Assembly (NCBI GenBank): GCA_011525805.1
Contig: WYBR01000033.1
Coordinates: 62,001 to 126,000 of the forward strand
Direction of reading: 5' to 3'
Origin: Vicinamibacteraceae bacterium
Lineage (GTDB): Bacteria > Planctomycetota > Phycisphaerae > Phycisphaerales > UBA5793
DNA length: 64,000 bases
The position numbers were made by a program, and so were the translations under genes. Positions 8,197 to 52,763 of the stretch are shown here, one piece after another. The notes under the pieces are model-generated. The model saw nothing but the letters and a program-made list of their open reading frames with translations, ran no database searches and was not told the origin of the DNA. The first letter of the stretch is position 1. Every line of letters begins with the position of its first letter.

Positions 8197-9720
8197 ATGA
8201 CCGAGCCGCAGCGAACCGGGGCCGAGGAGACCGCCTACGCCGAGCAACTGATTGCCGATCGGCGCGCCAAGGTCCGCCGCCTGCGTGAGGAACTCGGCGT
8301 CAATCCGTATGGGCGGCGCGTGGATGGACTCGTTTCCATCGCCGAGGCTCGCTCGCACTTCGTCGAGGGTGCGGAGGGCGCCGATCGGGCGGTCGTGTGC
8401 ACCGCCGGTCGCGTCATGCTCCACCGCGACGGTGGAAAACTCCACTGGCTCAACATCCGCGACCTCACCGGCGACCTGCAGATCGCCGTCTCGAAGAAGG
8501 ACGCCGACGCGGCGAGTTTCGCCGTTACTGAACTGACCGACCTCGGCGACATCATCGTCGTGCAGGGGCCGGTCATGAAGACCCGCACCGGCGAGATCAC
8601 CGTCTGGGCGAGCCGCGTCGAGATGGCGTGCAAGAGCATCGCCCTGCCGCCGGACAAGTTTCACGGCATTGAAGATCCCGAGATGCGCTACCGCCAGCGC
8701 TACGTGGACATGTACGTCCGCCCCGAGGTATCGCGGACGTTCCTGGTTCGCTCGCAACTGATGAGTTCGATCCGGCGCTACATGGACGGCCGGGGCTATC
8801 TCGAAGTTGAGACCCCAATGCTGCAGGCGCAGGCGGGCGGGGCGGCGGCGCGCCCCTTCATCACCCACCTCAACGCCCTCGACATCGACCTCTACCTGCG
8901 CATCGCGCCGGAACTCTACCTCAAGCGACTGCTCGTGGGCGGCATGCCGAGGGTCTACGAGATCAACCGCAACTTTCGCAACGAGGGCGTCGATCGCAGC
9001 CACAACCCCGAGTTCACCATGATGGAGGTGTACGAAGCGTTCGGCGACTGCGAGACGATGCTCGATCTGACGGAAGGGCTGATTCACGAACTCGCGGTCG
9101 AGGTGACGGGCGCCGCCGGCGGCCGGCCGCTGCTCGAGTTTGACGGGCGCCTCATCAACTGCGCGCGGCCGTTCGCCCGCGTGACATACGCCGGACTCTT
9201 CGAGGGCAGCGTGGGCGTGTCAATGTTTGACGAGGGCGCGGTGCGCGCCGAAGCGAAGAAACGCGGACTTGAGGGAGCGGAGACCAAGGACCACTGGCTG
9301 CTCGTGAGCGATCTCTTCGACCGCTTCGGGGAGCAGGGCATCGACCCCGCGAGGCCCACCTTCGTCATGGACTTCCCCAGCGCGATCTCGCCGCTCACGA
9401 GGCCGCACGAGGATCGGCCGGAACTCGCCTACCGCTGGGAACTCTTCATCGCCGGCATGGAGTTCGCCAACTCCTACACGGAACTCAACGACCCCGACGT
9501 GCAGGAGCGCAAGTTCAGCGAGCAACTGCGCGGCGCCGCCGTCGAGGATGCCACTTTCCGCACCCTGGACCACGACTTCCTCAACGCGCTGCGCGTCGGC
9601 ATGCCGCCCGCCGGCGGGCTGGGCGTGGGCATCGACCGGGTGATGATGCTCATGACGGGAAACCGCTCCATCCGCGACGTGATCCCCTTCCCCTTCATGC
9701 GGCCGGAGGAACGGACTTGA
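8197..9720 (+). CDS. lysS: Lysyl-tRNA synthetase, class II
   Basis: 507 residues. The N-terminal OB-fold anticodon-binding domain (about 60-170) contains RVMLHRDGGKLHWLNIRDL. The class II catalytic core follows, with motif 2 (NRNFRNEGVDRSHNPEFTMM) and motif 3 (GLGVGIDRVMMLMTG). VDMYVRPEVSRTFLVRS is typical of class II LysRS. It charges tRNA-Lys in the cytoplasm. The ATG at 8197 gives a family-like N-terminus. No Shine-Dalgarno is seen, but TACGAT lies nine bases before it. The stop codon overlaps the TTG start of the following FRG gene. Confidence 0.97.
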   Translation: MTEPQRTGAEETAYAEQLIADRRAKVRRLREELGVNPYGRRVDGLVSIAEARSHFVEGAEGADRAVVCTAGRVMLHRDGGKLHWLNIRDLTGDLQIAVSKKDADAASFAVTELTDLGDIIVVQGPVMKTRTGEITVWASRVEMACKSIALPPDKFHGIEDPEMRYRQRYVDMYVRPEVSRTFLVRSQLMSSIRRYMDGRGYLEVETPMLQAQAGGAAARPFITHLNALDIDLYLRIAPELYLKRLLVGGMPRVYEINRNFRNEGVDRSHNPEFTMMEVYEAFGDCETMLDLTEGLIHELAVEVTGAAGGRPLLEFDGRLINCARPFARVTYAGLFEGSVGVSMFDEGAVRAEAKKRGLEGAETKDHWLLVSDLFDRFGEQGIDPARPTFVMDFPSAISPLTRPHEDRPELAYRWELFIAGMEFANSYTELNDPDVQERKFSEQLRGAAVEDATFRTLDHDFLNALRVGMPPAGGLGVGIDRVMMLMTGNRSIRDVIPFPFMRPEERT

Positions 9721-15518: not shown

Positions 15519-17111
15519 ATGACCATGTCTTCGATGCATCGGGCTCTCCTTTCAAGTGCTCCACTTCGGCGCTCTCACATCCTGGCCGTGGGGATCGGCG
15601 CGGTCTGCATTCTCGCAGGCTCGCGAATTGCGCTGAGTCAATGCGAGCGGGTGCGCCTCGAGGCTCCGGATGGCGCCGAGGACGATCGACTCGGCAACGA
15701 CATCCGCGTCGATGGGGATCGCATGGTGGTCGGGGCACATCTGGACGACCACTCGGGACTCGTCGACGCGGGGGCGGCGTATGTTTTCGTGCGGAGCGGC
15801 AACTCTTGGCTCTATGAGGCGAAGTTGATTGCCTCTCATCCTCAGAACGACGCGCGGTTCGGGTGGTCCGTCGACATCGATGGCGACCTGATCGTGGTCG
15901 GAGCGCGCAACGAGAATCAGTTCGGTCCGGAATCTGGGGCGGCCTACGTCTTCCGTCGCTCCGGATCGCGCTGGGTGCAAGAGGCGAGGCTGGGAGCGGG
16001 CGACCCGGAGGAATTCGCGCGGTTCGGCCACTCCGTATCGATCAGCGGTGATGCGGTCCTGGTCGGTGCGCCGAAGGAGAACTTCCTCCGAGGGGCTGCC
16101 TACGTCTTCCGACGCGAGGGAATGGCGTGGGCGCAGGAAGCCAAACTTGGCGCCCAGTTCGGTGGATCCGGCGGCGACGAGCTCGGGTACTCGGTGTGCA
16201 TCGACGGTGATGTGGCGTTTCTCGGCGCTTGGCAGGTCGAGGATCTCAACCAGCCCTTCAATCATGGAAGCGTCTTCGTGCATCGTCGGATCAACGGCGT
16301 CTGGACGTTCGAGCAGCAACTGAATTCCGCCGACCGCGCCCAAGCAGAGAACTTCGGCATGGCCCTGGATGTGCAAGGCGATCGCGCCATCATCAGCAAG
16401 TGGCACGACAGCACGCGCGGCACGAACGCCGGATCGGCGTACATCTTCGAACACGACGGACAGCAGTGGGTCGAGCGGCAGAAGCTCCTTGCCTTCGATG
16501 CCGGGCCTGAGCACGAGTTCGGGGTCGATGTGGGGCTTGACGGCGACACAGTGGTCATCGGCGCGCGCGGCAACACGGAACTCGGGTTCAACGCTGGGGC
16601 GGCGTACCTCTTCACCCTCATCAGCAACGTCTGGACGTTCAGCGGCAAGCTCCTTGCCAGCGACGGCGGTCCGGACATGCTCTTCGGAAACTCGGTCGAT
16701 GTCTCCGGCAACGTTGCCGCCATCGGCGCTCCGCGGCGGAATGCCGGGAGGGGATCCGCCTACGTCTACCAGATCGACAACTGCAATCCCATACTCACCG
16801 TGTCTGCGACGTGCCCCAACGGCGGCCCGATCCAGGTCGGTTGGTCCAACGCCACGCCGAACAACCAGGTCGCCATCCTCTTCGCATACGGTCAGGGCGC
16901 GTTCCGAATTCCGCAGGGCCGGCCATGTGCGGGGGTCCAACTTGGCCTGAGCGCCAACGGGATCATGCTCGTGCAGAACACTACCTTCGGATCGGGAGCG
17001 AACGGCAGTCGAACGCTGTTCTCCAACGCCTCGTCTAACGCCTGTGGTGGATTCCTGCAGCTGCTGGACATCGCGACGTGCCGCACGAGCAATGTTGAGC
17101 GCATTGAGTAG
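15519..17111 (+). CDS. Exported seven-bladed FG-GAP propeller with shared C-terminal domain
   Basis: 530 residues. A signal peptide spans about 1-40 (HILAVGIGAVCILAG, cleavage near ALSQ). Seven FG-GAP-like repeats of about 50 residues follow, each with an FG-x-(S/D)-(V/I)-x-(I/V)-x-GD-x-(V/L)-(V/I)-GA core and a GAAYVF end, so a seven-bladed beta propeller is expected (about 45-425). The last 105 residues (C-rich; ATCPNGGPIQVGW ... ACGGFLQLLD ... SNVERIE) form a separate module also found at the ends of the proteins at 27329 and 51240. Two ATGs are possible, 15519 and 15525; the second has GGTGAG eight bases upstream. A terminator follows at 17148. Likely a surface or outer-envelope binding protein; the ligand is unknown. 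Confidence 0.85.
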   Translation: MTMSSMHRALLSSAPLRRSHILAVGIGAVCILAGSRIALSQCERVRLEAPDGAEDDRLGNDIRVDGDRMVVGAHLDDHSGLVDAGAAYVFVRSGNSWLYEAKLIASHPQNDARFGWSVDIDGDLIVVGARNENQFGPESGAAYVFRRSGSRWVQEARLGAGDPEEFARFGHSVSISGDAVLVGAPKENFLRGAAYVFRREGMAWAQEAKLGAQFGGSGGDELGYSVCIDGDVAFLGAWQVEDLNQPFNHGSVFVHRRINGVWTFEQQLNSADRAQAENFGMALDVQGDRAIISKWHDSTRGTNAGSAYIFEHDGQQWVERQKLLAFDAGPEHEFGVDVGLDGDTVVIGARGNTELGFNAGAAYLFTLISNVWTFSGKLLASDGGPDMLFGNSVDVSGNVAAIGAPRRNAGRGSAYVYQIDNCNPILTVSATCPNGGPIQVGWSNATPNNQVAILFAYGQGAFRIPQGRPCAGVQLGLSANGIMLVQNTTFGSGANGSRTLFSNASSNACGGFLQLLDIATCRTSNVERIE

Positions 17112-27026: not shown

Positions 27027-27328
27027 CCCGGCGGTGAGATTGCAGCCAGCGCGCAAGCCCGCGCTGCGAACCCCGGACCATCCGGGGCCGCTGACGCATC
27101 TTCACTCCGGCCGATTCTATCGGCCACCTCAGCCGCGGTGACGCCGCGGATTGTGGCACAAGGACTGACCCGGGCTTCTGTCAGGCTTTCAGGGAATAAT
27201 GACCCCGGATTCGGGTGTTGCAGTTGCATTGATGAACCACTGTGGTTCGCCCGGATCAGATGGTGCGGTTCGCACATCGCGAGCACAGTGATCGCATCGG
27301 AGTCGGCACAACGGAAAGAGAGGTTGGA
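27027..27328. other. 302-base divergent intergenic region mfd / Kelch gene
   Basis: Promoters for both genes are expected here, but no convincing -35/-10 pair, terminator or small gene was recognised. An AGAGG lies five bases before the Kelch-gene ATG. Confidence 0.4.
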
Positions 27329-29461
27329 ATGTACGCCGCAATGAACATGCCTCGTCCGATGGTCGCGCTTCTGATCGCAGTGGCTTCGATCTCGATCGGG
27401 CTTCCTCCATCAGCACGTGGACAGGACTGTGGCGAATGGATGGAAGTGGGGCCAAGCGGCCCGAACGGGAGATACCGTCACGCGGCGGCCTACGACAGTA
27501 CTCGCGGCGTCACGGTCATGTTCGGTGGTGACCTCACCCTCGGTGACACGTGGGAGTACGATGGCCGGGCGTGGAACCTTGCCGCCACCACCGGACCGAC
27601 CGGTCGGTGGGGTCATGCAATGACCTTCGACAGCGCGAGAGGACGAACAGTGCTCTTCGGCGGAATGGACGGCGACCGCCTGCGGGACACGTGGGTGTGG
27701 GATGGCGACGAGTGGGCGAGAATCCCGTTCACCGGCCCGTCGCGACGCCATTCCGCGGCGCTGGCCTATGACAGCGCGCGCGACGTCATCGTCATGTTCG
27801 GGGGCCGGGACTGGGACTCCCCATTCGGCGACACGTGGGAACTCGATCAATCCGGCTGGCGCCGCGTGTCGCAGACCGGTCCGAGTCCGCGCCACAGCCA
27901 CGCGATGACTTACGACTCAGCGCGCGGCGTCGTCGTGCTGTTCGGCGGGCTGGCGAGCAGCCCCATGGGCGATACCTGGGAGTGGAACGGCGTGGAGTGG
28001 CGGTTGGTCGGTGAAGGCGGCCCCGCGCCGCGTGCGGACCATGCACTGGCCTATGACGAGGCTCGCGGCGTAACGGTGCTGCGCGGCGGCTGGGACACTC
28101 TTGACACCTGGGAGTGGAACGGTGAGCAGTGGCGAGAGCGATTCGCCTCCGGACCGTCCGCCCGAGGCGGTCATTCACTCGTCTACGACAGCCGTCGACA
28201 GGTCTGCGTCCTCTTCGGCGGATCTGATGAGGTTTGCCTCCGCGGCGACACTTGGGAGTGGAACGGCTCGCGATGGACTCTGAGGGGAGATGTCGGGCCG
28301 TCCGGCCGCCTTGGCCACAGTATGGCCTATGACTCGGCGCACGATGAGACCCTCATGTTCGGCGGCTGGGATTATGCCTACACCAGAGGAGACCTGTGGG
28401 CCTGGGACGGGCGCACCTGGAGGCTCGCCTCCACCGTTGGCCCCTCGATGCGCACCGAGCACGCCATGGCGTTCGACAGCGCGCGATCCGTTACCGTGCT
28501 CTTTGGAGGGCACCACATCTTCGACGGGGAGTTGCGCGACACATGGGAGTGGGACGGCGAGCGATGGGTGTCCCGCTCTTCCATCGGGCCAAGTCTGCGG
28601 CGGAGTCACGCGATGGCGTATGACGAAGTGCGCGGCGTTACTCTTCTCTTCGGCGGCATGTACCTGCAGAGCGGTTACCAGTATCTCGGAGACACGTGGG
28701 CGTGGAGCGGGTCGGCCTGGACTCGAGTCGCCAGCGATGGTCCATCACCGCGCCACAGCGCGGCCATGGCTTTCGACTCACAGCGGGGCGTTGTTGTGCT
28801 CTACGGCGGAAGCCAGGGATCCGCGACGTACGGGGACACGTGGGAGTGGAACGGGGCCTCGTGGACGCTTGCGGCGACCGATGGACCGCCGCCTCGCTCC
28901 TCCCACGCGATGGTGTATGACCCGGTGCGAGGCGCTTGTGTCATGCACGGCGGAGTGAACGATGGGACTTGGGCGTGGGACGGCGTTGAGTGGACCGTTC
29001 TGGATGAAGATCCGCGGATGGACGTCCGCGGGCACTGGATGGTGTATGACCAGCGCCAGAGTTCGACCCTGCTCTTCGGTGGAATCCGATATGGAAGCGG
29101 AAGCACCGGGTATTCGGACGATCTGTTCCAGTTCCGCTGCCCGCTCGCTCTTTCCGTCACGCCGACGTGCCCCGGCGGCGGACCGGTCCATGTCGAATGG
29201 TCCGGCGCCGTTCCAAACGCCTACGTGGCGTTGATCTTCGCTCGGAACGTCGGTTCATTCGTCATTCCCGATGGAAACATCTGCGCCGGCGCGGTCCTCG
29301 GCCTTGGGGCACAGGAGGTCAAGCTCGTCTATCGCTGGCGGTCCGACGAGAACGGCACGGGGAGAGTTGACCGCAACGCCACCGCACACGGATGCGGCGG
29401 CTACCTTCAACTCATCGATCTCCACAACTGCACCACCAGCAACGTCGTGAGAATGGAATGA
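27329..29461 (+). CDS. Exported Kelch-repeat protein with shared C-terminal domain
   Basis: 710 residues. The signal peptide MVALLIAVASISIGL ends near SARGQ. About twelve Kelch/galactose-oxidase-like repeats of roughly 50 residues follow, each with GPSxRxxHAMxYDSARGxxVLFGG and D-T-W-(E/A)-W, enough for two propellers of six blades. The last 105 residues (PTCPGGGPVHVEW ... HGCGGYLQLIDLHNC ... NVVRME) match the C-terminal module of the FG-GAP proteins at 15519 and 51240. ATG 27329 has AGAGG five bases upstream and starts the signal peptide; in-frame sequence upstream is not kept. Probably secreted or surface-exposed; binding partner unknown. Confidence 0.85.
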   Translation: MYAAMNMPRPMVALLIAVASISIGLPPSARGQDCGEWMEVGPSGPNGRYRHAAAYDSTRGVTVMFGGDLTLGDTWEYDGRAWNLAATTGPTGRWGHAMTFDSARGRTVLFGGMDGDRLRDTWVWDGDEWARIPFTGPSRRHSAALAYDSARDVIVMFGGRDWDSPFGDTWELDQSGWRRVSQTGPSPRHSHAMTYDSARGVVVLFGGLASSPMGDTWEWNGVEWRLVGEGGPAPRADHALAYDEARGVTVLRGGWDTLDTWEWNGEQWRERFASGPSARGGHSLVYDSRRQVCVLFGGSDEVCLRGDTWEWNGSRWTLRGDVGPSGRLGHSMAYDSAHDETLMFGGWDYAYTRGDLWAWDGRTWRLASTVGPSMRTEHAMAFDSARSVTVLFGGHHIFDGELRDTWEWDGERWVSRSSIGPSLRRSHAMAYDEVRGVTLLFGGMYLQSGYQYLGDTWAWSGSAWTRVASDGPSPRHSAAMAFDSQRGVVVLYGGSQGSATYGDTWEWNGASWTLAATDGPPPRSSHAMVYDPVRGACVMHGGVNDGTWAWDGVEWTVLDEDPRMDVRGHWMVYDQRQSSTLLFGGIRYGSGSTGYSDDLFQFRCPLALSVTPTCPGGGPVHVEWSGAVPNAYVALIFARNVGSFVIPDGNICAGAVLGLGAQEVKLVYRWRSDENGTGRVDRNATAHGCGGYLQLIDLHNCTTSNVVRME

Positions 29462-51239: not shown

Positions 51240-52763
51240 TCAGGGAATGAGCGCGACGTTGCTTGCGTGACACGCCGCCGCATCAAGCAGCTGCAGGTAG
51301 CCGCGACAAGCCGCCGGGCCAGCCTGTCCCATGAAGGACCCGGCGCCCGTTGCGCCACTGTTGAATGGACCGGGTGGAGTGACCACCTGGAACTGGCTGG
51401 GGCTGAGGCCGAGCATCGTTCCTCCGCATGGTGTGCCGATCGGTACCCGATGGGTCCCCTGGGCGCTGGAGAAGAGGAGCACCTGCACGCTTGACGGGGT
51501 TGCATCCTGCCAGGCGATCTGCAGCATCCCGGGGCACTCGCCCTGAACATCCAGCGTGTAGTCAACGACTCGCCCCTGGAAGACGTAGGCGGCGCCGGTC
51601 TTCGCACCTCGATCGTCGTTGCGGCGGGCACCGACGACTGCCTGAGCACCATGAATCGCGACGGCCCCGCCGAACTCATGTCTCGTGCCTCCGTCGAGCG
51701 CGCGAATCTTGTGCACGAACTCACCGGTCAAAGCGTCAAAGATGTAGGCCGACCCCGACTGATAGCCGATGCTGTTGTCATAGAGCGCGCCAACGACTGC
51801 GCGATCCGCATGCAGAGCCACAGACCACCCGAACCACTGCTCCGGGCGGCCATCCGGCGCTGTGAACTTCGAGATCACCTGGCCGTCAGAGAGGTCGAAG
51901 AGATACGCAGCACCGGCGCCATCTCCTCGATCATCGTCCTTGGGCGAGCCGACGAGGGCGAGGTTTCCGTCGATTGCAACAGAGGCGCCGAAACTGTCAT
52001 AGGCCTCCAGGTCCTCGGGAACAAGTTTGTAAATCAACTGCCCCGTCTCGACATCAATGACATACGCGGCGCCCGAGCGTGTCCCTCGCCCGCGTGCATC
52101 CCTGGCGCCAACGATCGCCCGATCACCGCTGATACCGACGGAACAGCCGAACAGGTCTCCTTCGAGACCATCCGGAGCAAAGAGCCTCCTCAGCTGCACT
52201 CCGGAAGACACGTCGAAGATGTACGCCGCTCCTGATTCCGGGCCTCGCACGTCGGAACCGATCGCCCCGATGATCGCGTATCGACCGCTGAGGGAAACGG
52301 AGTGGCCAAACCAGTCGCGATCCGCGCCATCCGTGGCGTGCAGTTCGGCGTGTTGCTGTCCGGTCGTGAGATCGAAGACATACGCGGCGCCGCCCATCGT
52401 CCTGAGATCGCTGTTATTGCGAGCGCCGACCACCGCCACGCGATCCTGGACTGCAACGGCGCAGCCGAACCACTCTCCGGTGGCGATCGGAGTGGCGTTC
52501 AACTTGAACAACTGCCGCTGGGTAGCCAGATCGAGCACATACACACTCCCCGCGTCGGAACGCTGCCGACCGAGTTCATCCATCAGGTGCGCACCGATCA
52601 CAATGCGATCGGCGCTGACACCCACTGCATAGCCGAACTCGGAGTGATCCTGGGCGTCCGAAGCGAGGAGTTTGCGCCGAAGCGCCCAGACTTCCTGCGC
52701 CTGCACGGCGGCTGGGGCGATGCACGACAGCACCAGACACGTCAGAATGTACCTCTGAAACAT
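51240..52763 (-). CDS. Exported seven-bladed FG-GAP propeller with shared C-terminal domain (second)
   Basis: 507 residues. Signal peptide MFQRYILTCLVLSCIAPAA with cleavage near VQAQ. Seven repeats of about 52 residues follow, each with WFG-x-(S/A)-V-x-(I/L) ... VVGA and a GAAYVFD end (about 30-400). The last 105 residues (VQGECPGMLQIAW ... ACRGYLQLLDAAAC ... SNVALIP) match the C-termini of the proteins at 15519 and 27329. ATG 52763 has GGAG seven bases upstream; in-frame codons further upstream cross a terminator and are unlikely. TACAAT (near 52828) may be its -10. Convergent with the SDR gene. Confidence 0.85.
   Translation of the reverse strand: MFQRYILTCLVLSCIAPAAVQAQEVWALRRKLLASDAQDHSEFGYAVGVSADRIVIGAHLMDELGRQRSDAGSVYVLDLATQRQLFKLNATPIATGEWFGCAVAVQDRVAVVGARNNSDLRTMGGAAYVFDLTTGQQHAELHATDGADRDWFGHSVSLSGRYAIIGAIGSDVRGPESGAAYIFDVSSGVQLRRLFAPDGLEGDLFGCSVGISGDRAIVGARDARGRGTRSGAAYVIDVETGQLIYKLVPEDLEAYDSFGASVAIDGNLALVGSPKDDDRGDGAGAAYLFDLSDGQVISKFTAPDGRPEQWFGWSVALHADRAVVGALYDNSIGYQSGSAYIFDALTGEFVHKIRALDGGTRHEFGGAVAIHGAQAVVGARRNDDRGAKTGAAYVFQGRVVDYTLDVQGECPGMLQIAWQDATPSSVQVLLFSSAQGTHRVPIGTPCGGTMLGLSPSQFQVVTPPGPFNSGATGAGSFMGQAGPAACRGYLQLLDAAACHASNVALIP

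Follow-up and report, generated by a model that had tools for sequence, protein, structure and literature searches.

The surface placement of planctomycete proteins is poorly known, and planctomycete genomes are rich in long exported proteins of unknown fate. Dockerins are docking modules in cellulosomes. The C-terminal domain (CTD) of type IX secretion system (T9SS) cargo has, to our knowledge, no conserved Cys pairs. It is a C-terminal Ig-like sandwich, with the export signal in its last 22 residues, the last two strands (PMC4804311). PEP-CTERM tails are also terminal, and fewer than 10 residues follow the tail in 87% of the proteins (PMC1569441). The Fn3 domains of the pectate lyases Pel3 and PelI carry signals for the type II secretion system (T2SS; PMC7949064), and Planctomycetales have Cys-rich wall proteins with the YTV domain (PMC8567305).

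The window, the whole stretch of 64,000 nucleotides that was analyzed, encodes three exported β-propeller proteins that end in a common module of ~105–110 residues. The features are as follows.

15519..17111, plus strand: gene A, FG-GAP_2 β-propeller protein of 530 aa, exported, module at the C-terminus (FG-GAP_2 E 5.7e-89)
15519..15641, plus strand: probable Sec signal peptide of gene A (MTMSSMHRALLSSAPLRRSHILAVGIGAVCILAGSRIALS-Q; sequence inspection and hydropathy heuristic)
16779..17108, plus strand: module copy A (Cys codons at 16812, 16926, 17043 and 17079)
27329..29461, plus strand: gene B, Kelch β-propeller protein of 710 aa, exported, module at the C-terminus (Kelch E 2e-44)
27329..27424, plus strand: probable Sec signal peptide of gene B (MYAAMNMPRPMVALLIAVASISIGLPPSARGQ; sequence inspection)
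29129..29458, plus strand: module copy B
51240..52763, minus strand: gene C, FG-GAP_2 β-propeller protein of 507 aa, exported, module at the C-terminus (FG-GAP_2 E 1.4e-99)
52695..52763, minus strand: probable Sec signal peptide of gene C (MFQRYILTCLVLSCIAPAAVQAQ; sequence inspection)
51243..51572, minus strand: module copy C

Gene C, the main gene of the original prediction, is located on the minus strand, and the ORF of gene B is nested in a longer frame of the plus strand that starts at 27242. Copies B and C are 48% and 42% identical to copy A. The three copies have 31 invariant columns, all four Cys residues are aligned and a stop codon follows immediately, which establishes the homology that the original prediction had claimed for these three tails. 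The preceding propellers belong to different families, as it also stated, with FG-GAP_2 in genes A and C and Kelch in gene B. Its shared motif C-P-(G/N)-G does lie near the start of the module, but the spacing is shorter in copy C, which reads C-P-G. In copy A, the first and third Cys and the second and fourth Cys probably form disulfides. A profile built from 50 copies of the genome recovers exactly copies A, B and C in the window, and no fourth copy.

Neither Pfam nor NCBIfam contains a match to copies A, B and C at E≤1. Sets of 3, 50 or 11 members likewise match no Pfam or NCBIfam family and no PDB sequence. Single members gave isolated weak matches to bMG3 (E 0.002) and Peptidase_C25_C (E 0.05), which were rejected as chance-level. 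Among 50 copies, no match was found to the T9SS sorting models (PF18962, TIGR04183 and TIGR04131), to Dockerin_1 (PF00404) and F-hand repeats or to the YTV domain. The PEP-CTERM profile does not match either; the tails end in C-x-T-S-N-V-x-R-I-E/P, without a helix or a basic end, and inspection of copies A, B and C confirms the reported lack of a transmembrane helix and of a basic PEP-CTERM-like tail. The module, which the original prediction could not assign to a named domain, is thus also without a Pfam or TIGRFAM match, and judged by sequence it is best read as an uncatalogued domain outside the T9SS CTD, PEP-CTERM and dockerin families.

A profile search with the three tails had been proposed along with the original prediction. 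In the 138 contigs (4.54 Mb) of the window's genome, such a three-tail profile finds ~140 further copies in distinct ORFs (E<1e-5, best 3e-41), carried by unrelated exported proteins, which rules out chance similarity. A broader profile finds 143 module ORFs in this genome, a few of which contain a form with two Cys residues (2-Cys form). The extreme C-terminal location described from three genes holds throughout: the stop codon lies 0–6 residues past the module in 136 of the 138 ORFs that have their stop codon inside the contig, and the module is terminal in all 42 ORFs of independent MAGs (Phycisphaerales bacterium UBA5793, KLAP200, PLA5 and PNC21). The only two ORFs with sequence after the module, L034 (462 aa, plus frame) and L096 (298 aa, minus frame), share a homologous Cys-rich extension of ~110 residues. 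Two modules occur in one ORF in a single case in this genome.

The AlphaFold model of the 4-Cys module is an Ig/Fn3-like β-sandwich of eight strands (pLDDT 94.8, pTM 0.85). All four Cys residues are retained in 178 of 183 complete copies. In most diverged relatives across the phylum, the second and fourth Cys are the only ones retained, and one relative (L113) has only the first and third. Because the Cys residues are lost pairwise in relatives, in a manner that matches the strand order of the model, two disulfides, Cys1–Cys3 and Cys2–Cys4, are predicted; one copy in the window's genome (L037) has lost the first and second Cys, unlike this pairing. A disulfide-locked Ig-like domain is therefore well supported by the structure prediction and the paired loss. 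The model of the 2-Cys form exhibits a similar strand order (pLDDT 87.3), and the 2-Cys and 4-Cys profiles align with an hhalign probability of 99.4%. Apart from the Cys residues, conservation is strongest at an early C-P, a G, a W, I-P, G-T-x-L-G-L, a Q in the penultimate strand and S-N-V in the final strand. With Cys left out, the last 22 residues are better conserved than the remainder (2.16 versus 1.61 bits).

This conserved end corresponds in position to the export signal of the T9SS CTD. A T9SS-type CTD would follow the same logic in the same size class, combining a signal peptide, varied passengers and a C-terminal Ig-like sandwich in which the last two strands are conserved. However, none of the 50 copies matches a sorting-domain model, and SprA was matched in 0 of 24 genomes in a search in which the control genomes gave no match either. 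Type IX secretion of the module proteins is considered very improbable.

The fold also allows the module to be compared with the Fn3 domains of T2SS substrates. Foldseek searches of the module model against the PDB returned nothing at E≤0.001, and the VIA-align neighbors of both models are generic Ig/Fn3 domains. For the 4-Cys model, the Pel3 and PelI Fn3 domains rank highest (Z 9.2 and 8.9, 80 residues, 2.4–2.6 Å), and secretins are present in 15 of 15 genomes searched, both of which would suit a folded recognition domain for the T2SS. Little weight is given to the structural match because Nir2 heads the ranking for the 2-Cys model; antibody domains also trail by less than 2 in Z, so that the similarity may reflect just a common arrangement. 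Moreover, the Pel3 domain is N-terminal and its recognition is multi-site, and secretins are found in module-free genomes as well. A T2SS recognition role is thus unlikely, less so than the T9SS explanation. A secretin operon beside a stand-alone array of modules (contig C19) was rejected as a partner, since the operon is kept in families f1 (the window's family) and f2 and the adjoining arrays are not. Exosortase was rejected likewise: it occurs in all 71 genomes tested in the window's order, and its presence is uninformative because these include genomes without the module. The suggested co-occurrence with a particular protease or secretion system was therefore not borne out by exosortase, which is universal, or by secretin adjacency, which is absent in relatives.

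The passengers of the module are diverse. More than 10 unrelated partner families were identified, including SBBP, Kelch, FG-GAP_2/3, PQQ, subtilase, β-helix, Ig, GSDH, multicopper oxidase and CHRD, together with choice-of-anchor B (E 1.2e-106), choice-of-anchor Q and J, and DVUA0089. The passenger parts form 13 sequence clusters and 27 singletons. The partner type changes 27 times on the module tree (minimum 8; shuffled 54), which shows mixing rather than a rate because the tree is poorly resolved. The module has thus been shuffled among unrelated exported proteins, as predicted, and is not confined to one propeller family. Signal peptides are visible by eye in most of the module proteins. 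A strict but crude heuristic detects them in 79 of 126 module proteins and 45 of 130 control genes (P=1e-5); a looser rule passed 66 of 117 control genes, and the stricter rule was used instead.

At least 27 proteins consist of a signal peptide and the module alone. Many of these stand-alone genes are located in tandem arrays, and the repeated neighbor of these arrays is a longer exported protein, frequently a subtilase, that bears a 2-Cys module. At L253:11944-14447, L254:8060-10102 and L256:9777-12094, a secreted subtilase ending in a 2-Cys module is paired with at least one gene for a signal peptide plus a 4-Cys module, which suggests that the small stand-alone proteins act together with the neighboring subtilase. 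Two paralogues that adjoin stand-alone arrays in the window's genome (contigs C82 and C65) have in-frame stops at adjacent codons, TAA in L248:10426-10651 and TAG in L252:9540-9780 (minus strand). Both stops fall inside a C-terminal 2-Cys-like domain, the remainder of which is intact downstream. Other array neighbors (C38, and C67 and C170 of genome G304) contain frameshifts or stops, and the C72 paralogue is intact; such stops may reflect either decay or regulated readthrough. In the tandem array of C82 (L248:7867-7971 and 8378-8482), identity between units reaches 89% in the spacer and gene ends but only 65–71% in the coding modules.

The stand-alone proteins count against a pure sorting tag because no cargo is left to sort; they fit a domain that acts by itself in binding or docking as well as they fit a sorting tag. 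They favor the main rival explanation, an autonomous lectin-like or protein-binding Ig-like domain that acts at its final site, such as a sheath, exopolysaccharide or S-layer, and that is C-terminal through a fusion habit of the lineage. The arrays, some beside subtilases with 2-Cys relatives, the generic nature of the Ig/Fn3 fold and the dockerin-like repeats borne by the same partner in sister families are consistent with this explanation. The positional strictness of the module disfavors it: binding domains are commonly found at either terminus, inside the protein or in tandem, and only one ORF contains two copies of this nearly always terminal module. A plain binding domain is rather unlikely, although the strongest of the rivals. 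The stand-alone copies would also suit a structural wall protein, in which stand-alone and fused modules form a disulfide-rich layer as a Phycisphaerales counterpart of the YTV-domain cell-wall proteins; the modules are Cys-rich, abundant and partly in tandem stand-alone copies. Yet the four Cys residues act like two internal pairs that are lost jointly, leaving none for bridges between proteins, and there is no YTV match among the copies searched, so that a wall role has very little probability. The proposal of a sorting module thus stands in part, supported by the unrelated exported partners and the C-terminal strictness and weakened by the 27 stand-alone proteins and by the result that no gene tracking the module was recovered among those searched.

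In the window's order, the module is present in 6 of 6 sampled genomes of the window's family and in 0 of 145 others. Strong matches also occur in a distant family of the phylum (f61; 6 of 6 sampled). The 2-Cys relatives are found in 46 of 246 sampled genomes of the phylum, and within the window's class in f1 only. A contig scan yielded matches confined to Planctomycetota, a result that applies to the narrow profile (alignment A1). The tree comparing f1 with f61 copies lacks resolution (a single clade uniting the rows of f61 and f23 has p-AU 0.316), and f1 may have acquired the module by transfer.

Other lineages use other C-terminal devices on comparable proteins. Among choice-of-anchor B proteins that score almost equally against the profile, that of the window's genome ends in the 4-Cys module, those of f2 and f5 (both of the window's order) and of f22 end in a pair of dockerin-like repeats, and those of f37, f47 and f71 have other C-terminal domains. 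In additional planctomycete families, choice-of-anchor B proteins (L224, L228, L233, L239, L243, L245 and L246) terminate in other unnamed domains that show a Q...S-N pattern and are possibly distant relatives. Family f1 has ~140 modules (the count in the window's genome), 2–9 dockerin matches and 3–17 PEP-CTERM matches per genome. Family f2 has 59–99 dockerin matches and no module, and four genomes (G305, G111, G327 and G313; three of f4 and one of f3) have 63–114 PEP-CTERM matches and no module. Family f61 has many modules, no dockerin matches and 0–2 PEP-CTERM matches. The split is imperfect, since G311 has few dockerin and few PEP-CTERM matches, G309 has few PEP-CTERM matches and all three devices coexist in f1. 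Even so, lineages differ in which C-terminal device dominates the exported proteome, and the module is one option.

Taken together, these observations are best explained, with a probability of roughly 55%, by an autonomous disulfide-locked Ig/Fn3-like β-sandwich that serves C-terminal surface targeting or attachment in this planctomycete lineage. Judging from the N-terminal signal peptides, Sec would export the protein from the cytoplasm. The module would then fold in the periplasm with the disulfides Cys1–Cys3 and Cys2–Cys4, as the predicted topology and the paired loss suggest. A putative envelope component may read the C-terminal hairpin, with its near-invariant Q and terminal S-N-V, and the folded protein would be moved across the outer membrane and/or held at the surface. 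Export and anchoring by the module would thereby equal the presumed role of PEP-CTERM tails and dockerin-like repeats in sister lineages. Tentatively, the module could even be the signal of a previously undescribed Planctomycetota outer-membrane sorting or anchoring system with its own putative envelope machinery, in which ~140 proteins of one genome, and more with the 2-Cys relatives, are marked by an Ig-like C-terminal domain that is locked by disulfides and ends in a Q...S-N-V hairpin. For the surface placement of planctomycete proteins, a single uncatalogued module accounts for the C-termini of ~140 proteins of one genome, and annotators gain a family to define. If the module is indeed a sorting signal, it would represent a secretion or anchoring route beyond the known list.

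Compared with known systems, the module shares separate features with each. Like the YTV domain, it is planctomycete-specific, Cys-bearing and exported, but that domain belongs to another lineage of the phylum and its Pfam model does not match the module. In sister families, Dockerin_1-like repeats fill the same C-terminal slot of the homologous choice-of-anchor B protein; a dockerin is a paired Ca-binding F-hand repeat, with a different fold and no sequence relation to the module. PEP-CTERM is similarly C-terminal on many unrelated exported passengers and common in the window's order, whereas it is a tail of ~24 residues with a transmembrane helix and a basic end, the module is a folded domain of ~105 residues with neither, and exosortase does not track the module. 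The Fn3 domains of PelI and Pel3, the nearest structural match of the 4-Cys model, are exported bacterial Fn3-like domains tied to outer-membrane secretion; they differ in being N-terminal, in their 14% identity and in a secretion signal that extends over two domains. The T9SS CTD (Por secretion tail, types A/B) differs in sequence, in having no two conserved disulfides or stand-alone copies and in phylum, the module belonging to Planctomycetota. It is nevertheless the nearest functional analogue, with the same Sec signal peptide, strictly C-terminal Ig-like β-sandwich, unrelated passengers, many copies per genome and an end that is the most conserved part.
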